NCBI RefSeq assembly: GCF_963675165.1
Contig: NC_087390.1
Span: forward strand, 1,693,501 to 1,757,500
DNA length: 64,000 nt
Direction of reading: 5' to 3'
Origin: Halichondria panicea
Lineage: Eukaryota; Porifera; Demospongiae; Suberitida; Halichondriidae
Below the pieces are notes generated by a model. That model saw only the letters and a list, made by a program, of their open reading frames with translations, made no database searches and had not been told where the DNA came from. Position numbers and translations under genes: made by a program. Below, one piece after another: positions 10,351 through 56,168 of this stretch (position 1 is its first letter; each line of letters opens with the position of its first letter).

Positions 10351-10434
10351 ATGGAGCAGATGTACCAGGGAAAGAAAAGCGCTTACATGGCTCTTCTACA
10401 GGAAGAAGGCCATGCAGACACCATGCACCTCAAG
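10351..10434 (+). CDS. Candidate exon, unrecognised protein
   Basis: Follows an acceptor (ACATCATGGCCAACAG) and encodes 28 codons starting MEQMYQGKKSAYMALLQEEG, then a weak donor (GTTGGG). Phase 0 at both ends fits the exon at 9826-9918. The product would be helical and charged. No continuing exon was found by 11.8 kb, so the gene, if real, is incomplete here. Confidence 0.35.
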
Positions 10435-20379: not shown

Positions 20380-20941
20380 TTATGAGACAAAGACTCCTAG
20401 TATAATTAGTTATGATCGTCATAATGACTACTAGTTATCCCAATTGTGTTTGGTTTGTTGGGAGCTGTTTTCTTGTGTTTGCGTTCTAGTGCCTTCACCC
20501 TATAGTTCCTGGCATTCCACAGTACGTGTATGTTGTGAGTGTCTTGTATTGCATAGGTGGGAGTCTCTTTCTAGTAGCTGTAGTTGTTAACTACCTCACT
20601 ACAGCTAGGCCTGGATCATGCCTGATTGAGATGTGCTAGTTTTATTGCCTGGTTTGTATTCAGTATCTATGCTGGTATTTGGATCCCATATAATTATTGC
20701 CGATATACTCATTAGATATTGTGTAGCAGTCAATTATCATACTGGGTTGTCCAACTGTACAGTTTACTGCCACCATTGTGTATGAGTGTTGTTCTTATAT
20801 CCTTCTCTTTCTATCTAAAAATGGCTTGAAATTGAGCCAAAGTCATCTCAGTCCCTCAAAACCATCTCTGTGTTCTCAAGTTTGCACAGAGCTCCCCTCA
20901 ATCGCAGTGCTCTCACATAAGTATATACTGGGAGGAAGACG
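20380..20941 (+). pseudogene. POT4: heavily decayed transporter fragment
   Basis: Begins with ATGAGACAAAG like the family start, then jumps to the TM2 region (CAATTGTGTTTGGTTTG). It continues with frameshifts and losses to CTGGGAGGAAGACG in the TM6-TM7 loop, where similarity stops at 20941. A run TAAGTATA has been inserted at about 20918-20926 compared with intact copies. It cannot encode a transporter. Confidence 0.8.
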
Positions 20942-21838: not shown

Positions 21839-22969
21839 GCTATCTCACTTGTGTTTGGTCTGTACGGAGCTGTTTTCTCAGGATGGCTAGCCGACGCTAA
21901 GCTGGGGAACTATACAGAGTGATGAAATACAGTTTTGTACTGTTGTTCTTCCTTTGTTTGCTTTCTAGTGCCTTTACCCTAGTTCCTGCATGCATGACAT
22001 TACTCATTACGTGTATGTTGTGAGTGTCTTGGTGTGCATTGGTGGGAGTCTCTTTATAGTAGCTGCAGTAGCATGCTTTGTTACCTCACTACAACTAGGC
22101 CTGGATCAGATGCCTGATGCTTCATCCAGTATCTATGCTGGTGTTTGGATTCCTGATGTTGCCGATTTACCCCTTAGAACTGCTGGCAGTCAATTACCAT
22201 TCTGGGTTTTCCAAGTGTATAGTTTACTGCTGCCTTATGTCTGAGTGTTGTTCTTATTCTTGACTTCTTTCTAGCTAAAAAATGACTGATAATTGAACCA
22301 AAGTCCCCTCAGTCCCTCAAAACCATCTACCGTTTTCTCAAGTTTGCAGCCAAGCACAAAGCTCCCCTCAATCGTAGTGCTTTCACATACTGGGAGGAAG
22401 ACGTACCTTCAAGAATGGACCTGGGAAAGTTGAGATATGGTGGACCATTCACTACAGAGCAAGTTGAGATGTGAAGACCATCCTACGTTTGTTACCCCTC
22501 TGTTTAACTCTATGGTTTCTTGGATGCTCACTTGCACTCTTCCATCCAGTAACTTATTCTAGTGTTTACCCCCTGATTGGAAGCTTTCTGTTTCAAAGCT
22601 TTTGCATGGCTTTATTCATGTATCACCATTTGTGGTGTGGTATGGTTTGACTGTCTTTTATGAGTTTGCGTTATACCCAGTGATACGTAACAAACTTCCC
22701 AGCATTCTTAGAAGAATTGGGATAATTTCTCTCTTCATCACAGCTCTCAGTATTGTGTTTCTAATTCTGGAACTACTACAAAACAATTACGGGGATAAAT
22801 TAGTTGCAATCAAGTATGTTATAATCGTTTTAAATTCAATTTCTACTGGTGTGCTCACAATGTTGCTTGCTAGTAACATGATAGAGTTAGTTTGTGCTCA
22901 AGCTCCATACAACATGAGAGGATTGTTTGGAGGGTGTATGGTGTTGGTGTTATTATCAGTTCTTATTAT
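21839..22969 (+). pseudogene. POT5: decayed transporter, truncated by a repeat
   Basis: Matches intact copies from TM2 to TM11. It lacks the first 65 or so codons, carries an in-frame loss of 36 bp in TM5, a Trp-to-stop change (AAAAAATGACTG), two single-base losses and several short insertions (CATGCATG near 21988, TA near 21911, TGCA near 22604). The copy ends abruptly where the ATTATGCCTCGAGGC repeat begins, so the last segment and tail are gone. Confidence 0.85.
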
Positions 22970-23345
22970 GCCTCGAGGCGTAGCCGCACGAGGGATACAG
23001 TAAAGCTGACTGTGTGTGTGTCTGTCTGTGTGTACGTGTGTGTATTCCAGCTATAACTGCTCAACGGTTACAATGCGACGAAAACTAACAGCTTCTATAG
23101 GCTTCTAGCCACGTTCTCTTGGATTTCGATTCGTAGATTAGCAAACTAAAGCTTCTTTCTCGAGTTATGGCTAGTTTGACTCACATTGAAGGCTGTTGCA
23201 GTCTCTTCAGAATCTTTCATAGCATCATCTGTTCGCACAAACTTTCTATTCAACTTATGAGTTAGCCTTGCACTTAAGCGCTAGCTTTTTGTTGGCTACA
23301 AGAGTTAGAAAGAGCTGCTAAAGAAGCTAGCTATTTTAGTAGCCA
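22967..23345 (+). repeat. Interspersed repeat R1, copy 1 (intact)
   Basis: About 380 bp beginning ATTATGCCTCGAGGCGTAGC, followed by a TG-rich tract and a conserved body (ACTAACAGCTTCTATAGGCT, CTTGCACTTAAGCGCTAGC). Reversed at about 31375-31735 and present, split by younger insertions, at 33398-33478 plus 35446-35755. Class not determined; no coding frame. Confidence 0.75.
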
Positions 23346-26805: not shown

Positions 26806-27910
26806 TAGCCTCGATACCAGGCCGAGTTTTCGCTTTTATAACGGTTAGGCGAACAACTGGGCTGGTACTAGTTGTCTGCGCATGTGTCAAATTTTCATTG
26901 TATATTTGTGTTCGGCAAAAATATTTAATAAATCAATAATCGAAATTTGTACACAGAAAATGCACAGAGTGAGTACACAAAAGATGCGCATAGGGAGCTG
27001 CTTCACAAAGGCCTGGGGAGTTGCCAGTTGTGCTGCAGCACAATTACAGTGACCCAGGGCAACTTCAGGATGATTGAATGCCTTCAAATTACGTTTCAAA
27101 AAGATTTAGCAGGCTGCTGGACTTCTCTGATTCTAGGCCCCAACTCGTAACTCAGTTAAATTTTGCTTGAGATTCTCTTGATGTCTCTGAGCTACCCAGC
27201 AACACTCGAATGAGCAGGTCATACTCCAGTCCTGTGAGTATAGGACAATATTAAAAGAAACCAAAGACGGTTAAACCCTTACCTCAAACTGTCCAGTCTC
27301 GTCCGTTAGTATAGCCAAGAGGAGCACTGGTGGGATAGCTGGATATTAGCCATTGCTCCTGTACAGAGAAGTAGACATTTTAAATACGTGTAGATCTATA
27401 CATATTAAATTTCTCGTATTAAACAGGTTAGTGTCATTGTCGACGAGCTGATGATGGCAGCACCAAGTTCTCTAGTTCACACTCTTCACTTGATCCACCA
27501 TATTAATGATGAAACTATAGTCTACCTACATACCGGTAGATCTTGCCAAACATGAACAAGACTTGATAGCATAGCCATAGGGCCCACACAAAAATATCTG
27601 ACCTTAACAAGCTTGACAAAGCTTTATACCTCTTCCCTTGTTGTTCAGTCTTCAGAATAAGCTTCAGAGAAGAGAGAAGCTTCAGCTAAGAGCGAGGCTA
27701 AGAGCCATTCCAATCGATTCCAATAATGATAAAACGGGAACTGACTTCTAGTACACGATAGTACACGAATATAAATGTCACGAAAGTGAACGAGAATATC
27801 CATTCGTCAGAATCTGACGAACGACTGACGCATGCGCAGACAACTAGTACCAGGCCCAGTTGTTCGCCTAACCGTTATAAAAGCGAAAACTCGGCCTGGG
27901 ATCGAGGCTA
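26806..27910. mobile_element. TAGCCTCGA family, long type, copy 1 (9-bp TSD)
   Basis: Starts TAGCCTCGATACCAGGCCGA and ends TCGGCCTGGGATCGAGGCTA. Inverted repeats of roughly 75-80 bp include TTTTATAACGGTTAGGCGAA. The 9-bp duplication AGTAAGCAT flanks it exactly (26797-26805 and 27911-27919). A 9-bp duplication with long inverted repeats suggests a Mutator-like element (inference). The inner region keeps a damaged frame that is open in copy 2. Confidence 0.85.
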
Positions 27911-30674: not shown

Positions 30675-31250
30675 TAGCCTCGATTCAAGGCCGATTAAAA
30701 TACGGCCTGGTACCTATTGCAGGGGTGATAGTGCACATGCGCTTCAAATTACCCAGAATATGGGTAATCGTACTACGAACGTAAAACCTTAATTAGTCCG
30801 TTTACTAAAAATATGTTCCGTAATACTTTATCTCTATGACTGAGTTCTTTAAAGCTGTGGCTATTGCATTGGTCTAGAAGGTTTGAATACTAGTTTTAAG
30901 ACAGAAGAGGCTCTCATCTACGTCTAGGATGGTCCTATAGCTGGGTTGTCTTCGCAAGTAGCAGTTTGAGGCACCATACACTTCCCATAGCCTGTACAGA
31001 TCCAAGGTAAGACATCCTGACCATACAACCGTCATAGAGGTAGATGAGAGCCTCTTCTGGCTTCAGACTAGTGTGAAAGCCTTCTGGAACAACACAATAG
31101 AGAGCTAAGCTGATGTACAAAGATAATAGAAAATAGATGAGAGAAAGAAAAAGGGGATTCCCCAGATTCTGGAGAATAAACTAACGCATGCGCACTATCA
31201 CCCTGCAATAGGTACCAGGCAGTATTTTAATCGGCCTGGAATCAAGGCTA
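30675..31250. mobile_element. TAGCCTCGA family, medium type, copy 1 (9-bp TSD)
   Basis: Starts TAGCCTCGATTCAAGGCCGA and ends TCGGCCTGGAATCAAGGCTA, with about 66-bp inverted repeats including GCCTGGTACCTATTGCAGG. Flanked exactly by CCTCTGGAC (30666-30674, 31251-31259). Internally AGAAGAGGCTCTCATCTAC is repeated inverted. A minus-strand frame (31120-30935) with LKPEEALIYLYDGCMVRMSY is shared with the copy at 41603. Confidence 0.9.
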
Positions 31251-31374: not shown

Positions 31375-31735
31375 TGCTAGTACCGTAGCTGTTTTAACAG
31401 ATATTTTCTGAGTATTGTAGCTACAAAAAGCTAGCGCTTTAGTACAAGGCTAACTCATATGTTGAATAGAAAGTTTGTGCGGACAGATGATGCTATGAAA
31501 GATTCTGAAGAGACTGCAACAGCCTTCAATGTGAGTCAAACTAGCCATAACTCGAGAAAGAAGCTTTAGTTTGCTAATCCACTAATCAAAATCCAAGAGA
31601 ACGTGGCTAGAAGCCTATAGAAGCTGTTAGTTTTCGTCGCATTGCAACCGTTGAGCAGTTACTGCTGGAATACACACACACACACACACACACACAATCG
31701 TATCCCTGGTGCGGCTACGCCTCGAGGCATAATAA
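31375..31735 (-). repeat. Interspersed repeat R1, copy 2
   Basis: Reverse complement of the 22967 copy, ending in a CA dinucleotide run (31674-31696) and GCCTCGAGGCATAAT. Differs from copy 1 mainly in the length of the TG/CA tract. Confidence 0.75.
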
Positions 31736-33487: not shown

Positions 33488-34559
33488 TAGCCTCGATTCC
33501 AGGCCGAGTTTTCACTTTTATAACGGTTAGGCGAACAACTAGGCCTGGTACTAGTTGTCTACACATGTGTCAAATTTTCATTGTATTTGTGGTCGGCAAA
33601 AATATTTAATAAATCAATAATCGAAATTTGTACACAGAAAATGCACAGAGTGAGTACACACAAAATATGCACATAGGGAGCTGCTTCACAAGGGCCTGGG
33701 GAGTTGCCAGTTGTGCTGCAGCACGATTACAGTGACCCAGGGCAACTTCAAGATGTCTTCAAATTACGTTTCAATGATTTAGCAGGCTGCTGGACTTCTC
33801 TGATTCTAGGCCCCAACTCGTAACTCAGTTAAACTTTGCTTGAGAAAACGTAGATTCTCTTGATGCCTCTGAGCTACCCAGCAACGCTCGAACGAGCAGG
33901 TCATACTCCAGTCCTGTAAGTATAGGACAATATTAAAGAAACCAAACACGGTTAAACCCTTACCTTAAACTGTCCAGTCTCGTCCATTAGTATAGCCAAG
34001 AGGAGCACTGTTGGGATAGCTGGATATTAGCCATTGCTCCTGTACAGAGAAGTAGACATTCTAAATACGTGTAGATCTATATTAAATTTTTCGTATTTTA
34101 AACAGGTCATAGTGTCATTGTCGACGAGCTGATGATGGCAGCACCAAGTTCTCTAGCTCACACTCTTCACTTGATCCACCATATTAATGATGAAACTATA
34201 GTCTACCTAGATCTTGCCAAACATGATGATAGCATGCACAGGGCCCACATAAAAATGTCTGACCTTAACAAGCTTGACAAAGCTTTATACCTCTTCCCTT
34301 GTTGTTCAGTCTTCAGAATAATGTTTTCTAAGCTTCAGAGAAGAGAGAAGCTTCAGCTAAGAGCCATTCCAATAATGATAAAACGGGAACTGACTTCTAG
34401 TACACAATAGTACACGAATATAAATGTCACAAAAGTGAACGAGAATATCCATTAGTCAGAATCTGACTAACGATTGACGCATGCGCAGACAACTAGTACC
34501 AGGCCTAGTTGTTTGCCTAACCGTTATAAAAGCGAAAACTCGGCCTGGGATCGAGGCTA
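33488..34559. mobile_element. TAGCCTCGA family, long type, copy 2 (9-bp TSD)
   Basis: Ends TAGCCTCGATTCCAGGCCGA and TCGGCCTGGGATCGAGGCTA. The duplication GTCTGTTCA lies directly before it (33479-33487). After its right end it is separated from the second GTCTGTTCA (34568-34576) by eight bases readable as ATAATTAT. An internal frame (34132-34410, MMAAPSSLAHTLHLIHHIND) is open here and damaged in copy 1; its product is unrecognised. Confidence 0.85.
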
Positions 34560-34574
34560 TAATTATAGTCTGTT

Positions 34575-35445: not shown

Positions 35446-35817
35446 GTCTGTTTTCCAGCTGTAAATGCTCAACGGTTGCAATAAGACGAAAACTAACAGC
35501 TTCTATAGGCTTCTAGCCACCTTCTCTTGGATTTTGATTCGTGGATTAGCAAACTAAAGCTCCTTTCTCTAGTTATGGCTAGTTTGACTCACATTGAAGG
35601 CTGTTGCAGTCTCTTCAGAATCTTTCGTAGCATCACCTGTCCGCACAAAGTTTCTATGCAACTTATAAGTTAGCCTTGCACTAAAGCGCTAAGTTTTTGT
35701 TAGCTACAAAAGTCAGAAAAGAGCTGCAAAGCTAGCTAGCTAGCTACACTGTACTGCACTGTTACTTCATAATCTGAGCTCAGCATGAGTTCGAGTCGAG
35801 TGAGGCTAAACACAGGA

Positions 35818-36930: not shown

Positions 36931-37280
36931 GCGTGATCCACAAGGATTTTTATGAACGTGGGCGATATGTAGCCCACAATCTTGACATAAGATATTCACC
37001 CACGCTTTTATAGACCGGCTAGAAATCTAACTTGCCAGGGAACCAGCGTGGCTAGGCTAGCTAGCCTGGAGCTCTGGAGGCAGCCTAGCTAGCTAGCTAG
37101 CTAGATAAAATAATCCTAGACAACATGCAGCCTATAGTTCAGCTACAAGGCAACAAGCACTTCTGTTATCAAGTCAGAAAGTAAGTTTTGTTCATTAACT
37201 AAGGCTATAGATATATGGCCTGGCATATAATTTTTGTACTTGCATGACTGTGCTAGATATATAATATACTAGATCTAGTC
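36931..37280. other. Spacer rich in CTAG repeats
   Basis: Holds a run of GCTAGCTAGC words (37050-37110) and no gene. It may include the 3' part of the minus-strand DUF6589-like relic. Confidence 0.4.
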
Positions 37281-39399: not shown

Positions 39400-40213
39400 A
39401 TGCCTTTGACGAAGGTTTGCTCCCACTGTTTGGCTGTAGGTCATGTAAGACGGTCCATTTGCACTGACTGTGGAAACCCATTCTTAGTGAAGCGATCAAA
39501 GGTGAGTAAAAAATTAGTTGTGAGAAGCTGAGACTTGTGAGCAGAGCGTATTGCGTAAAGCTAAGGATAGGGAACGTAAATATCTAGCTAGAGCTAGTGA
39601 AACTAAGGGTCAGGCTGTTGTGCGTAAATATTACAATACGTCTCGAGCTAGGGCTAATGACACGGAGCCTCAGACTGATGTACGTAGAACTAAGGACGCT
39701 GCACACACGTCTCAAGCTAGAGCTAAGGAGACAGAGCCTCAGACTCTTGTACGTAGAACTAAGAACACTGCATTAACGTCTCAAGCTAGAGCTAATGAGA
39801 CAGAGCCTCAGACTGCTGTACGTAGAACTAAGGACGCTGCATTAACGTCTCAAGCTAGAGATAATGAGACAGAGCCTCAGACTCTTGTACGTAGAACTAA
39901 GAACACTGCATTAACGTCTCAAGTTAGAGCTAACGAGACCGAGCTTCAAAGTATTGTACGTAGAGCTAAGGACGCTGCATTAACGTCTCAAGCTAGAGAT
40001 AATGAGACAGAGTCTCAGACTATTGTACGTAGAACTAAGAACACTGCATTAACGTCTCAAGTTAGAGCTAACGAGACCGAGCTTCAAAGTATTGTACGTA
40101 GAACTAAGGACGCTGCATTAACGTCTCAAGCAAGAGATAATGAGACAGAGCCTCAGACTATTTTACGTAGAACTAAGAACACTGCACACACGTCTATAGA
40201 TGCATGTAAATAA
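39400..40213 (+). CDS. Zinc-knuckle plus 23-residue repeat protein (Helitron-associated type)
   Basis: Two coding exons, 39400-39501 and 39545-40213, joined by a 43-bp intron (GTGAGT...GCAG) in phase 0, give about 256 residues. Exon 1 follows the acceptor CTTTTCTTACAG and encodes a Cys/His knuckle, KVCSHCLAVGHVRRSICTDC, ending GNPF. Exon 2 opens SVLRKAKDRERKYLARA and then repeats a 23-residue unit (RRTKDAALTSQARANETEPQ) about eight times, strongly basic and helical. Similar zinc knuckle plus arginine/glutamate repeats precede the Rep-helicase part of metazoan Helitron proteins (from memory). Here the Rep and helicase domains are absent, and a Helitron-like 3' end lies 140 bp downstream, so it is probably a shortened element protein. 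Confidence 0.55.
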
Positions 40214-40354: not shown

Positions 40355-41546
40355 TTGTTTTGTAGTAGTTCCAGAATTAGAAACACAACATTGAGAGTTG
40401 TAATGAAGAGAGAAATTATCCCAATTCTTCTAAGAATGCTGGGAAGTTTGTTACGTATCACTGGGTATAGCACAAACTCATAAAAGACAGTCCAAACCAT
40501 ACCACACCACAAATGGTGATATGTGAATAAAGCCAGAAGCCTTGAAATATAAAACTTCCAATCAGGAGGATAAACACTAGCATAGTTTAGTGGATGGAAG
40601 AATGCAAGCGAGCACCCGAGAAGCCATAGAGTTAAGCAGAGGGACAACAAACGTAGGATGGTCTTCACATCTTCAACTTCTTCTGTAGTGAATGGTCCAC
40701 CGTATTTCGACTTTCCCAGGTCCATTCTTGAAGGTACGCCTTCCTCCCAGTTTGTGAGAGCACTGCGATTTAGGGGAGCTTTGTGCTTGGCAGCAAACTT
40801 GAGAACATGGTACATGGTTTTGAGGGACTGAGGTGACTTTGGTTCAATTATCAGCCATTTTTTAGCTAGGAGAAAGTCAAGAATAAGAACAACACTCATA
40901 TACACAAAGGTGGTAGCAAACTGTACAGTTGGACAACCCAGTATGATGAACGACTGATACACAAAACATCTGATATAATGGGCAAATCGACAACAAAAGG
41001 GATCCAAATACCAGCATAGATACAGAATGCAAACCAGGCAATAAAACTAGTGATATTGGAAGATGAAGCATCAGGCATCTGATCTAGGCCTAGTTGTAGT
41101 GAGGTAACAAAGCATGCTACTCCAGCTACTATAAAGAGACTCACACCAATGCAATACAAGACACTCACAGCATACATGTAATATTCAATGCCTAGAACTA
41201 GGGTGAAGGCACTAGAAAGCAAACAAAGGAAGAATAACAGCACAAAACTGTATTTCATCACTCTGTAGTTCCCCAGCTTAGCGTCGACTAGCCATCCTGA
41301 GAAAATAGCTCCCAACAAACCAAACACAACTGGGATAGCAAGTAGCCATTTTGAAATTACAAAATTTACATAAGATCATTGATGGATAACCTGAAACACT
41401 GAAGTACCGGCTATTGCTAACAGCATAACCCAGACCAGAACGAGAAAGGATCCCTTGGAATAGAACCACCTCACTCTGTACTTGAACTTGCAGCCATTCC
41501 TTGATACCAGAGGACTGCCTCCATTCGTAGAGTTAGTTTGTCTCAT
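40355..41546 (-). pseudogene. POT6: inverted copy of POT3, broken
   Basis: Reads on the minus strand from the family ATG at 41546. It agrees closely with POT3 (SDVLCISRSSYWVVQLYSLL, LAFFHPLNYASVYPPDWKFY) but has a CGA-to-TGA stop after VIHQ, a nearby frame loss, and a TA inserted at about 40899-40902 in CATATACAC (CATACAC in POT3). It stops in TM10 at the Helitron-like end. The missing C-terminal part was not found left of the Helitron-like gene. Confidence 0.9.
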
Positions 41547-41602: not shown

Positions 41603-42208
41603 TAGCCTCGATTCAAGGCCGATTAAAATACAGCCTGGTACCTATTGCAGGGGTGATAGTGCGCATGCGCTTCAAATTACCCAGAATATGGGTAATCGTA
41701 CTACGAACGTAAAACCTTAGTAAATTACACAGGAATAGCCCGTTTACTAAAAATATGTTCCGTAATACTTTATCTCTATGACTGAGTTCTGTAAAGCTGT
41801 GGCTTATACCGTCTATTGCGTTGGTCTAGAAGGCTTGAACACTAGTTGTAAGACAGAAGAGGCTCTCATCTACGTCTAGGATGGTCCTATAGCTGGGTTG
41901 TCTTCGCAAGTAGCAGTTTGAGGCACCATATACACTTCCCATAGCCTGTACAGATCCAAGGTAAGACATCCTGACCATACAACCGTCATAGAGGTAGATG
42001 AGAGCCTCTTCTGGCTTCAGACTAGTGTGAAAGCCTTCTGGAACAACACAATAGAGAGCTAAGCTGATGTACATGTACAAAGATAGAAAATAGATGAGAG
42101 AAAGAAAAAGGGGATTCCCCAGATTCTGGAGAATAAACTAACGCATGCGCACTATCACCCCTGCAATAGGTACCAGGCCGTATTTTAATCGGCCTGGAAT
42201 CGAGGCTA
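41603..42208. mobile_element. TAGCCTCGA family, medium type, copy 2 (9-bp TSD)
   Basis: Ends TAGCCTCGATTCAAGGCCGA and TCGGCCTGGAATCGAGGCTA, flanked by TGGTAAATG (41594-41602 and 42209-42217). The uninterrupted site survives upstream of POT3 (CTGCATTTACCAAGTTACAG), which proves the insertion and the 9-bp duplication. Relative to copy 1 it has an extra TA in the shared internal frame near 41931. Confidence 0.95.
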
Positions 42209-43110: not shown

Positions 43111-44353
43111 ATGATACAAACTAACTCTATGAATGGAGGCAGCTCTCTGTATGGTATCATGCAAGGAATGGCTGCAAGTGCAAGTACAGAGTGAGGTGGT
43201 TCTATTCCAAGGGAGCCTTTCTTGTTCTGGTTTGAGTTATGCTGTTGAGTATATCTTATATATCAGTGTTTCATGTGCTCCATCAACGATTGGTGTCCAT
43301 TTTGTATTTCAAATGGCTACTTGCTATCCCACTTGTGTTTGGTTTATTGTTGCATGGGAGCTGTTTTCTCAGGATGCATGGCTAGCCGACGCTATTAATC
43401 TGGGGAACTATACAGAGTGATGAAATACAGTTTTGTACGGTTGTTCCTCCTTCGTTTGCTTTCTAGTGCCTTCACCCTAGTTCCTGACATTGCCCATTAC
43501 GTGTATATTGTGAGTGTCTTGTATTGCATATAGGCGGGAGTCTCTTTCTAATAGCTGTGGTAGCGTGCTTTGTTACCTCACTACAACTTGGCCTATAGAC
43601 CTCATGCTTCATCTTTTATGTATGAGGCCTATATGTATGAGTGTTGTACTTATTCTTGACTTCCTTCTAGCTAAAAAATGGCTAATACTTGAGCCAAGCT
43701 TACCTCAGTCCCTCAAAACCATCTACCGTGTTCTCAAGTTCGTTGCGAATATGAAACGTTGTTTTGAATTGTTACATGTCAAGGCTTCTGGTCTTTTTCA
43801 CATACAATTTTTTGTGGTGTGGTATGGTTTGGACTGTCTTGTATGAATTTGTGATCTATTCTGTGGCATGTATCCTTCTTCCCAGCATCCTTAGGAAAAT
43901 TGTAATTGTTTCTTTCTTCATAACGGCTCTCAGTATTGTGTTTGTAATTCTGGAACTATAGTACAGTACTGTCATAGTGATTTAGTGGCAGTCGATTTTG
44001 TCATTGACATTATACATTCAGGTTTCTCAGGGTTTGCTCGCAATGTTGCTTGCTACTAACATCCTAGAGTTAGTTTGTGCTCAAGCTCCATAACAACATG
44101 AGAGGATTGTTTGGAGGTTGGATGACATTTGTGACGATCTCTTCTTTTATTATCAGCGATTTTGCTCCGTCAAACAGCACATTAACAATATTTCTATATG
44201 GGGTTAGAGTAGGCACCAGCTCAGTCTGCTTGGATTCATCCTGTACTGCCTCCTGGCTCACTGGTACAAGAAGAGAGTTAAATACGAAGACTATACAATG
44301 CACACAGAGTGGTGGAGGAAGTCTATAATCGATACTTGTCAGCTCGGCATTGA
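43111..44353 (+). pseudogene. POT7: decayed full-span transporter copy
   Basis: Spans from the family ATG to the tail but has many frame breaks. Insertions seen against intact copies: TGCA near 43159, CATG near 43352, GCAT near 43374, TA near 43410, TA near 43530, TA near 44293. TM5-TM6 is mostly deleted (around 43600-43625), and the cytoplasmic loop after GTTCTCAAGTTC is lost. The tail begins in yet another frame. Confidence 0.85.
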
Positions 44354-46879: not shown

Positions 46880-47845
46880 ATGAGACAAACTAACTCTACA
46901 AATGGAGGCAGCCCTCCGGTATCAAGGAATGGCTGCAAGTGCAAGTACAGAGTGAGGTGGTTTTATTCCAAGGAAGCCTTTCTCGTTCTGGTCTGGATTA
47001 TGTTGTTGACTATATCTTATATATCAGTATTTCATGCGTTCGATCAACGATCTGGTGTCAATTTTGTAATTCCAAAATGGTTGATTGCTATCCCACTTGT
47101 GTTTGGTTTGTTGGGAGCTGTTTTCTCAGGATAGCTAGCCGACGCTAAGCTGGGAACTAAGGAGTGATGAAATACAGTTTTGTGCTGTTGTTCCTCCTAT
47201 ATATTTGCTTTCTAGTGCCTTCACCCTAGTTTCTGGAATTACTCATTACGTATATGTTGGAGTGTCTTGTATTGCATAGGCGGGAGTCTCTTTGTAGTAG
47301 CTGTGGTAGCATGCGTTGTTACCTCACTACAACTAGGCCTGGATCAAATACCTGATGCTTCATCTTCCAATATCACTAGTTTTATTGCCTGGTTTGCATT
47401 CTGTATCTATGCTGATGTTTGGATCCCGTATGTTTTAGATTTGCCAATTAAGTACAGTGAGTTCTGTATCAGTCATTCGTCATATACTGGGTTATCCAAC
47501 TGTACAGTTTACTGCCACCATTGTGTATGAGTATTGTTCTTATTCTTGACTTCCTCTTAGCTAAGAAATGGCTGATAATTGAGCCAAAGTCACCTCAGTC
47601 CCTCAAAAACATCTACCAGGTTCTCAACTTTGCAGCCAAGCACAAAGCTGCCCTCAATTGCAGTGCTTTCACAAACTGGGAGCAAGACGTACCTTCAAGA
47701 ATGGACCTGGGAAAGTCGAAATACGGTGGGGACTATTCACTACAGAGCACTACCTGTACTGCTTCCTGGCTCGCTGGTACAAGAGGAGACGAGGACTATA
47801 ATGCACACAGAGTGGTGGAGGAGGTCTATGATCGATATACTTGTA
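46880..47845 (+). pseudogene. POT9: transporter with stop and internal deletion
   Basis: Opens normally (MRQTNSTNGGSPPVSRNGCK) and reads 84 codons to a Trp-to-stop change (AGGATAGCTAGCC). Later come a frame loss at GCTGGGAACTAAGG, TA-type insertions (CTATATATTTGC near 47199, CATATACTGGG near 47484, GATATACTTG near 47838), and a large deletion joining the TM6-TM7 loop directly to TM12. The signals upstream are intact. Confidence 0.9.
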
Positions 47846-54348: not shown

Positions 54349-55056
54349 TGTATTCCATCAAAGACTTCATTTGGTAATTCCAAAATGGTTCATTGCTATC
54401 CCAGTTGTATTTGGTTTGTTTACAGCTGTTTTCTCAAGATGGCTAGCCGACGCCGCTGGGAAACTATAGAATTATGAAATACGGTTTTGTACTGTTGTTC
54501 CTCCAATGTTCGTTTTCTAGTGCTATCACCCTAGTTCCTGGCATTGCACATTGCACATTATCCTAGCTCCTGATTGGAAGCGTTTTATTTCAATGATTTT
54601 GTCCTTGTTCACGTATCACCATTACTGCATGCATGGTGTAGTGTGGTTTGGACTGTCTTTTACGGTTGTTAGCATTGTGTTTCTAATTCTGGAACTATTA
54701 CAAAATATTGGTGATATAGTTGCAATCAAAATTCAATTTCTTAGGGTTTGTTCGCAATATTAACACTACTCGCTAGTACCATGTTAGAGTTAGTTTGTGC
54801 TCAAGCTCCATACAACATGAGAGGATTGTTTGGTGGGTGTATGGCACTTGCGTTTTTTCATCCGATTTTATTCATTGAACATCACATTAACAATTATCAT
54901 AATTTTTATGAGATTAAAGCCGCTTTCAGTTTGTTTGGATTCATCCTGTACAGCCTCCTGGCTCGCTGGTACAAGAGAAGAGTTAGAGACGAGGACTACA
55001 ATGCACAAAGAGTGGTGGAGGAGGTCTATGATCGATACTTGTCAGCTCAGCATTGA
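54349..55056 (+). pseudogene. POT12: internally deleted transporter
   Basis: Retains pieces of TM1-TM3 (GGTTCATTGCTATCCCAG), a short central piece with CATGCAT inserted (ATTACTGCATGCATGG near 54627), and an open C-terminal frame from 54748 to 55056 ending VVEEVYDRYLSAQH. The TM4-TM7 region and the cytoplasmic loop are missing. It lies between the arms of the inverted duplication. Confidence 0.85.
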
Positions 55057-55076: not shown

Positions 55077-56168
55077 CGACTAGAAAAACATTTGCAATGT
55101 GAAAAATTGCTAGGATTGGCCAGGGGAACCACAAAAAAACGTGGGAACAAGAAATCAGACGAGAGCATAACTCCAATCCGTTACAACGTCAATCACATGT
55201 ACTGGTAGTTTTCCCATGTTTTCCCAGCCAATATGCCACGCAATTTAGTGATGACCAATCCCTATATATTTATTATACATCCATTTTGGAATGTGCGGGC
55301 ACATAATCATGATGATTTGTGATGAATTGATGTTCCTAATACATGCAGTGTTGAGCACAGGTATACACACAGTCCATCCATGCGTAGTAACATGCACGGA
55401 CCGTACTGGTGACATGCACGGACCGTACTGGTGACATGCATGGAATGATGTGGTGGATGGAAGCTGATGGATAGATGGATCTGGAACACAGTCTATTATT
55501 TAATATACTATCTATTGTACATGTTCATGACGTTGTAACGGATTGGAGTTATGCTCTCGTCTGATTTCTTGTTTCCACGTTTTTTTGTGGTTCCCCTGGC
55601 CAATCCTAGCAATTTTTCACATTGCAAATGTTTTTCTAGTCGGATTCCCTTTCTTTTTCAGTACAGTTTACGTATCATGACATGCATAAGTGGAACGTCA
55701 AGAGGCAGTACAGAAGTTCAAGAAGAGAAGACAGGACTGATCAGATATCTTCTCGAATATCTCTGGTGGACTAATAATTATAGTAATGAGTGCTTGATAT
55801 GTTGAATTTGCGAATCAGTATTAAATGACAGCCATTTTAAGAGCATGATATCTAGCCAGTGCATATAGCATGCCTGTCAGAGAAAGGGAGCTAGAGCTGA
55901 AGAGTGTGAAGAAAAGCAACACCTCATGCAGGCTCTGGAAAAGCACTGCTGCTGTAGCCTCGAGACCAGCCGTTCGTTATCTGAAAAGAACGGGTGGTCT
56001 CGAGGCTACTGCTGCTGCTGCTGCTGATTTTAGGCACACGGTTTATTAGCCACGTACGCCTATCTATATTATTAATTGGCCACAAAGCAATTGCTGAGTC
56101 ATTAAAGATGGCGGAATTGTCTAGGTATAAGAGAAATAGAGACTGAGAGGTCATCTGCCTCGTGGATC
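55077..56168. repeat. Right arm of the inverted duplication around POT12
   Basis: Reverse counterpart of 52412-53385, beginning TCCGACTAGAAAAACATTTG and continuing past GCATATAGCATGCCTGTCAG. Differences include a 54-bp insertion at 55955 and an expanded CTG run next to it. Confidence 0.85.
55955..56008. mobile_element. 54-bp TAGCCTCGA mini-element (9-bp TSD)
   Basis: TAGCCTCGAGACCAGCCGTT folds onto ACGGGTGGTCTCGAGGCTA with a short loop. CTGCTGCTG flanks both sides (55946-55954, 56009-56017), though it lies in a CTG run, so the duplication could be coincidence. The corresponding position in the left arm (near 52543) lacks it. Confidence 0.75.

Follow-up and report, generated by a model that had tools for sequence, protein, structure and literature searches.

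Small inverted triplications (SITs) have been described in FEN1/Rad27-deficient yeast and in cancers; their duplicated segments measure 7 bp to >10 kb (median 148 bp), and they have spacers of ~30 bp and junctions of 6 bp, are raised by loss of FEN1/Rad27 and also of rtt105, and were not found in 15 human genomes (PMC13334657). In rad27-null yeast, quasi-palindromes are corrected and palindromes expanded, with 21 template-switch events among 455 changes (PMC5677150). Template switches in great apes copy a median of 12 nt (PMC7954356, which cites Loytynoja and Goldman 2017). Local foldback insertions at yeast breaks, mostly 5–34 bp long, use pre-existing inverted microhomology with a loop, and their other end is captured by end joining; the authors allow that insertions of 1–4 bp may arise likewise and are hard to distinguish from the products of other mechanisms (PMC11724301). 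Among short insertions of primates and flies, ~80–90% are simple or complex tandem duplications (PMC2374710).

The indels described here share the DUP/INV/DUP architecture of SITs, in that a target S is followed by its reverse complement S' and then by S again (S·S'·S), and for SITs a double template switch at Okazaki-fragment flaps has been proposed; however, here S is 2–3 nt long, there is no spacer, a FEN1-like gene is present and the sequence is inherited, and size, spacer and junctions all differ from those of SITs (PMC13334657). Like the changes in rad27-null yeast, which were attributed to a nascent strand that folds back and then returns, ours create palindromes, but the yeast events start from quasi-palindromes or existing palindromes and involve long insertions, whereas here the target need not be palindromic (PMC5677150). 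Local insertion of a reverse complement through two switches is shared with the great apes, where the switches appear as clusters of mutations, in contrast to the clean 4- or 6-bp gains seen here (PMC7954356). The foldbacks at yeast breaks are also short inverted templated insertions, but they give a single inversion rather than S·S'·S (PMC11724301), and the primate and fly spectrum also includes a minority of inserts copied off the reverse strand, with templates that peak ~10 bp away and not, as here, directly adjacent (PMC2374710). Hairpin-forming repetitive elements of sponge mitochondria are another case of self-complementary sequence accumulating in an animal genome; unlike the present gains, they are repetitive and lie in mitochondrial intergenic regions (PMC2800124). 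In the literature searched, whose coverage was partial and lacked preprints and most subscription papers, we found no description of a 2–3-nt zero-spacer inverted triplication.

Palindromic gains at individual sites

The window, by which we mean the whole stretch of 64,000 nucleotides analysed (G000:C14:1693501-1757500), belongs to a genome of 131,455,214 bases in 39 contigs. Between 11848 and 58266 it carries a gene family of ~520 aa, several copies of which are broken; we call it transporter-like, a working name, and the single copy scanned had no Pfam match. Of the 13 copies aligned, five retain a full-length frame (511–528 aa) and the rest are broken or partial. The original prediction had named 15 places with small palindromic gains or extra bases, most of them in dead copies, and alignment of the copies recovered 15 of 15, within a few bases (Table 1). 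One of the 15 is an 8-bp insert, TAATTATA, which separates the end of an element from the target duplication and is missing from the other 38 copies listed. Another, an extra TA at 41931, is indeed a difference between copies; with a single other copy, gain and loss are not separable there.

The placement of some gains depends on the alignment: those at 22603, 43353 and 54626 are palindromic when copies are compared in pairs, and the 13-copy MAFFT alignment instead placed ATGG, TGTTGCA and ACTGCATG, respectively. Nor are the named sites all independent. Specifically, 21911 and 43409 represent a single site that is present in two copies, and the gains at 43374 and 44292 are common to copies on L014; because these two recur in paralogous copies (at L014:3807 and L014:4690), assembly error appears to be an unlikely source of the gains. 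Across the MAFFT alignment of the 13 copies, 12 of the 33 minority insertions are palindromic, and no copy with a full-length frame carries any of these. Successive steps of the TA classes described below could, by our reasoning, build the 8-bp insert at 34560.

Table 1. Short gains and related features, in coordinates of the window
Position	Strand	Feature	Basis
10422..10425	+	polarised 4-bp gain, CA→CATGCA, not in transporter-like copies	polarised set
20501..20502	+	TA→TATA	MAFFT
20691..20694	+	4-bp gain, ATAT→ATAATTAT	MAFFT, pairwise
21911..21912	+	TA→TATA	MAFFT
21987..21994	+	8-bp gain TGCATGCA, TG→TGCATGCATG; product expected of two S·S'·S rounds	MAFFT, pairwise
22603..22606	+	4-bp gain TGCA, TG→TGCATG	pairwise; MAFFT placed ATGG at 22606
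34560..34567	+	8-bp gain TAATTATA at junction of TIR element end and 9-bp target duplication	comparison with other 38 copies listed
37085..37104	+	(CTAG)5 self-complementary microsatellite, of the type that repeated rounds would seed	sequence
40898..40899	-	TA→TATA, minus-strand gene copy	MAFFT
41931..41932	+	extra TA relative to sole other copy at 30948; unpolarised	pairwise
43158..43161	+	self-complementary 4-bp gain CATG, dead transporter-like copy	MAFFT of 13 copies
43353..43356	+	4-bp gain CATG, TG→TGCATG type	pairwise; MAFFT placed 7-bp gap at 43348
43374..43377	+	4-bp gain ATGC (=TGCA), TG→TGCATG; common to copy at L014:3807	MAFFT, pairwise
43409..43410	+	TA→TATA; site identical to 21911	MAFFT
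43528..43529	+	2-bp gain AT/TA	MAFFT
44292..44293	+	TA→TATA; also in L014:4690	MAFFT
47482..47483	+	2-bp gain AT/TA	MAFFT
47835..47836	+	2-bp gain AT (47838 in the original prediction)	copy alignment
54626..54633	+	8-bp gain TGCATGCA	pairwise; MAFFT placed ACTGCATG at 54624
55925..55928	+	polarised 4-bp gain, CA→CATGCA	polarised set

The window also holds several repeats. An element of ~1.1 kb lies at 26806-27910 and 33488-34559, with terminal inverted repeats of ~84 bp, ends TAGCCTCGATCCCAGG and target duplications of ~9 bp. Of 725 first-look candidates, 40 were scored, and 39 copies were aligned; these lie 1.0% from their consensus, which indicates recent activity. L044 and L060, whose flanks are identical, do not represent separate insertions of the element. 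A repeat of ~296 bp occurs at 23038-23333, 31398-31690 and 35446-35742, with all 40 scored copies (of 2066 first-look candidates) at 95–100% identity, and a 69-bp unit is present in eight tandem copies at 39638-40186, within an open frame at 39551-40213. Three queries returned no relatives in other sequence collections.

Product rule and direction of the short indels

For a systematic set of indels we used the 200 kb surrounding the window together with copies of two dispersed repeats off other contigs, compared all against all with blastn. Each indel was classed across every equivalent gap placement, so the classes are independent of where the aligner put the gap. This gave 1262 distinct unpolarised indel contexts of 1–12 bp, 152 of them 4 bp long; the bulk comes from one 270-kb region of contig C14, and the repeat families and pattern counts reach other contigs. 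Loci L001-L004, which were cut at GCATGCATGCATGC sites, entered the early polarised runs and were excluded from later indel and word counts.

The 152 distinct 4-bp indels comprise 41 of the form S·S'·S, 12 palindromic with a split flank match, 16 palindromic and tandem, 3 palindromic with less flank match, and 80 that are not palindromic. In the S·S'·S form a dinucleotide becomes an inverted triplication without a spacer, as in TG→TGCATG or CT→CTAGCT. A core class that is palindromic, non-tandem and matched to its flank over at least 2 nt accounts for 53 of the 152, against 3.8 expected for random 4-mers from the same DNA (P=6e-45, which gives the scale only, as the events are not fully independent). 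At 6 bp the core class numbers 7 of 66 against 0.5 expected, and four of the seven are S·S'·S.

When the 50 four-bp cases with a flank match of exactly 2 nt are written as S·M·S, M equals S' in 31; in 12 more S is self-complementary and so is M (11 TA·AT·TA and one TA·GC·TA), in 3 M alone is, and 4 are of other kinds. Where S differs from its own reverse, complement and reverse complement, M is S' in 22 of 23 cases and is never the reverse (0) or the complement (0). The targets of the 31 cases are CA/TG (15), TA (5), AA/TT (4), AG/CT (4), AC/GT (2) and GA/TC (1). Trinucleotide targets follow the same rule in 3 of the 10 six-bp cases with a match of exactly 3 nt, namely CAA·TTG·CAA, CCA·TGG·CCA and TGT·ACA·TGT. 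A one-nucleotide form, X→XX'X, shows no excess outside TA (12 against 14.3 expected), and neither does a single fold-back S·S' (18 against 23.9 expected at 2 bp, 9 against 6.8 at 3 bp and 4 against 2.6 at 4 bp). The S·S'·S inserts are the reverse complement of the sequence that they adjoin, with the original sequence resuming after them, as a template switch would give, and their segments stand in the DUP/INV/DUP order of a SIT.

Two further classes are specific to TA. The dominant 2-bp gain is TA→TATA: where a single 2-bp duplication matches over 2–3 nt, the duplicated bases are TA or AT in 57 of 85 cases. In form such gains are tandem duplications, and taken by themselves they are no proof of palindrome writing. 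Within the 4-bp core class, 12 cases are of TA type, mainly ATAT→ATAATTAT: all 11 TA·AT·TA events are flanked by A and T. As a word, ATAATTAT shows a 22-fold excess, with 257 occurrences in 264 kb, against at most 2.5-fold for TAATTA in other contexts; 491 of the 514 flanks of ATAATTAT are distinct, and we reject the idea that it is a component of a repeat. Because the target provides no template for the central AT of ATAATTAT, we treat TA→TATA and ATAT→ATAATTAT as TA-specific classes separate from S·S'·S.

To polarise an event we required at least two other copies spanning the site and 75% agreement, and events sharing their local context were collapsed, which left 111 insertions and 105 deletions no longer than 40 bp. 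When only lengths of at most 12 bp are taken, self-complementary sequence makes up 42 of 109 insertions as against 5 of 100 deletions (Fisher 1.5e-9), although much of this contrast is due to length, because palindromes need an even number of bases. The 42 comprise 19 of 2 bp, 20 of 4 bp and 3 of 6 bp, and at these three lengths alone the palindromic fractions are 42/65 for insertions and 5/20 for deletions (p=0.002); at 4 bp alone they are 20/24 and 1/4 (p=0.04). The 24 polarised 4-bp insertions consist of 12 S·S'·S, 5 with a split match (four ATAATTAT and one TAGCTA), 3 tandem or array gains and 4 that are non-palindromic. Under stricter polarisation (four copies, 80%), all 5 four-bp insertions fall in the class and the lone 4-bp deletion lies outside it. 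A first run at 2, 4 and 6 bp, with three copies, flanks agreeing at 10/12 and L001-L004 included, gave 14 of 20 palindromic insertions and 0 of 5 deletions. A looser run, also with L001-L004 and with shared events uncollapsed, gave 45 of 63 insertions and 12 of 26 deletions at the same lengths; L003 and L004, which overlap nearly completely, entered it as two copies.

The same kind of gain occurs on several contigs. In the F1 repeat (39 copies aligned, with the compound copies L055 and L059 excluded), there are 6 distinct 4-bp insertions, 5 of which are palindromes that match their flank, and 2 of 3 four-bp deletions fit too. The five fitting insertions are two of TA→TAATTA, two gains of a TA repeat and one CC→CCGGCC, and the copies named for them lie on five contigs. 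Divergence of the F1 copies from their consensus is 1.0% (425 differing positions among 42,021 bases), so some of the events are recent. A second repeat family (23 copies) has 4 distinct insertions in total, none of 4 bp. The gain bias is clear in the cleaner sets; the structure of the product is better established than its direction.

Words and self-complementary arrays

Certain palindromic words had been singled out as frequent throughout the window, and they are: ATAATTAT occurs 69 times against 2.9 expected and GCATGC 63 times against 17.8. The counts given below for 264 kb cover the window and loci L005-L024. Part of the GCATGC excess is CGCATGCG, which on both strands of the 264 kb is found 42 times against 0.7 expected (56-fold) and is perhaps a separate motif of promoter type; we take it to resemble an NRF1-type promoter motif. 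ATAATTAT includes a core of homeodomain type. Another word, TACATGTA, occurs 89 times in the 264 kb, 6.6-fold above expectation, and may be a further palindrome class.

Patterns of the form S-NN-S were also counted in the 264 kb, and the 15 middles other than S itself were ranked by their excess over an order-2 Markov expectation. S' heads this ranking for 12 of 12 non-self-complementary dinucleotides (six independent ones, as both strands are counted). In a 104-kb subset its rank is 1 for 8 of the 12 and 2–4 for the others, as compared with ranks of 10–15 of 15 in 100 kb of E. coli K-12. The summed enrichment is 2.21-fold for S', 1.47 for the complement and 1.23 for the reverse, the complement control thus being raised too. 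Longer S·S'·S words also occur, some of them (CTAG)n or AT-rich: there are 20 at k=4, against 12 for the reverse control and 13 for the complement, then 10 at k=5 (0 and 2) and 6 at k=6 (0 and 0). At k=3 the complement control is about as common as S·S'·S (354 against 370), largely through palindromes of the TACATGTA type, so these word counts are uninformative and the indels carry the evidence for k=3. Zero-spacer palindromes with arms of 4–7 are only mildly enriched.

Tetranucleotide arrays were compared genome-wide among four units that each contain one A, C, G and T and no CpG, overlapping windows within an array being counted separately. The two self-complementary units are GCATGCATGCATGC, with 1024 sites, and GCTAGCTAGCTAGC, with 1399; ACTGACTGACTGAC (53 sites) and its reverse (41 sites) are 19–34 times rarer. 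The two self-complementary arrays that contain CpG, which served as reversed controls, are themselves rare (CGTACGTACGTACG 28, CGATCGATCGATCG 0), so the excess is not general to every self-complementary unit; CpG loss may be the reason.

Taken with the polarised insertions and deletions and with the placement-invariant statistics, these word and pattern counts support the proposal that a process writes short palindromes here. The palindromes are not written freely: the target is mostly copied, S→S·S'·S.

Competing explanations and a proposed copying mechanism

Ordinary replication slippage, or fill-in of a staggered break, produces tandem duplications, and these are plentiful in our set (110 of 234 indels at 2 bp and 28 of 152 at 4 bp); the 16 palindromic 4-bp tandem copies and the TA→TATA class have exactly the form that slippage would give. 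The 53 core 4-bp cases, however, are non-tandem by definition, and non-self-complementary arrays of equal unit composition are 19–34 times rarer genome-wide. The non-tandem 4-bp class and the 22 of 23 cases with M=S' rule out slippage as the whole cause, and we consider it highly improbable as the main one. An excess of palindromic gains over slippage, on which the original prediction had staked itself, is present in this one genome. It is also very unlikely that composition or selection underlies the pattern, with palindromic words kept as binding sites and indels merely landing there. The 56-fold excess of CGCATGCG may be regulatory, but the signal lies in gains that sister copies lack, within dead genes and repeat copies, S' leads for all the non-self-complementary dinucleotides, and the surroundings of ATAATTAT are not conserved.

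TA is the target of Tc1/mariner elements, and excision footprints, in which target duplications surround palindromic residues of the inverted repeat (TA·AT·TA, TA·GC·TA or TA·CCGG·TA, with TA·TA when clean), match the TA class in form: TA·XX'·TA is seen in 12 cases, 11 of them TA·AT·TA within ATAT and one TA·GC·TA, there is a single TA·CCGG·TA, and TA or AT dominates the single 2-bp duplications. Footprints, however, cannot yield the reverse complement of an arbitrary target, as in TG·CA·TG, CT·AG·CT or CAA·TTG·CAA, and we judge the instances of ATAATTAT, with flanks that nearly all differ, too many for the footprints of one family; excision is therefore an unlikely explanation. We also doubt that hairpin-capped ends were opened off-centre and end-joined, leaving P nucleotides as in V(D)J joining and hAT excision, while the second S would come from a stagger in the cut. 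By our reasoning, a stagger of k nt combined with k-nt P nucleotides on both ends would also yield S·S'·S through pairing of the overhangs, and a few inverted-addition gains are present in the looser polarised run. Yet such joining predicts that S·S' alone should be commonest, whereas S·S' shows no excess at 2, 3 or 4 bp, and the P length would have to match the stagger every time. That S' equals S in length and touches it on both sides, and that the S·S' half-products are missing, argues against hairpin opening and for a switch coupled to a return.

We therefore favour, with a probability of roughly 0.5, a recurrent and inherited copying error in which S (as a rule 2 nt, at times 3 and seldom more) becomes a zero-spacer S·S'·S by a double template switch, probably through copying of a flap. 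Polymerases are known from biochemistry to switch strands while displacing one, and FEN1 normally acts on flaps only a few nucleotides long. From the structure of the product we infer two switches, flap copying and ligation. A polymerase extending a 3' end at a nick would displace k nt of the downstream strand, then leave its template and copy the displaced flap outward, making S'; before the flap could be cut away, its 5' end would be ligated to the new 3' end, giving S·S'·S. Flap copying followed by ligation would make S' as long as S and abut it to S on both sides. Repeated rounds could give TGCATGCATG and, later, self-complementary microsatellites. The missing k=1 class would require quick removal of 1-nt flaps. 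The flap model gives no reason for the preference for TG/CA targets (15/31), and it incompletely explains TA→TATA and ATAT→ATAATTAT, which are companion classes.

A gene on contig C12 is FEN1-like, as judged from a family match and motifs; the best family match spans stops, which we read as introns. With this gene predicted from sequence to be present, we do not claim loss of FEN1. Six frames of 588–601 aa with an XPG_I domain are clustered at G000:C13:3752339-3866203 (L087), scoring 29–31 bits against a cut-off of 24.9.

Short insertions are usually attributed to slippage and tandem duplication; here, half of the polarised 4-bp insertions (12/24) are S·S'·S. This is a natural mutator signature with an exact and testable product rule, and the rank of S' in S-NN-S offers a simple statistic with which other genomes can be screened. 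If the proposed mechanism is true, it would tie flap handling to inherited indels and would explain how microsatellites with palindromic units, among them (TGCA)n and (CTAG)n, originate. We regard as evenly poised the broader reading that the largest class of inherited 4-bp insertions in this lineage is the zero-spacer dinucleotide inverted triplication, a signature for which we found no description at such a scale in the literature searched; in this reading it would hit many dinucleotides, seed self-complementary microsatellites and suggest that fold-back copying of 2–3-nt flaps escapes repair in this sponge despite a predicted FEN1 gene.
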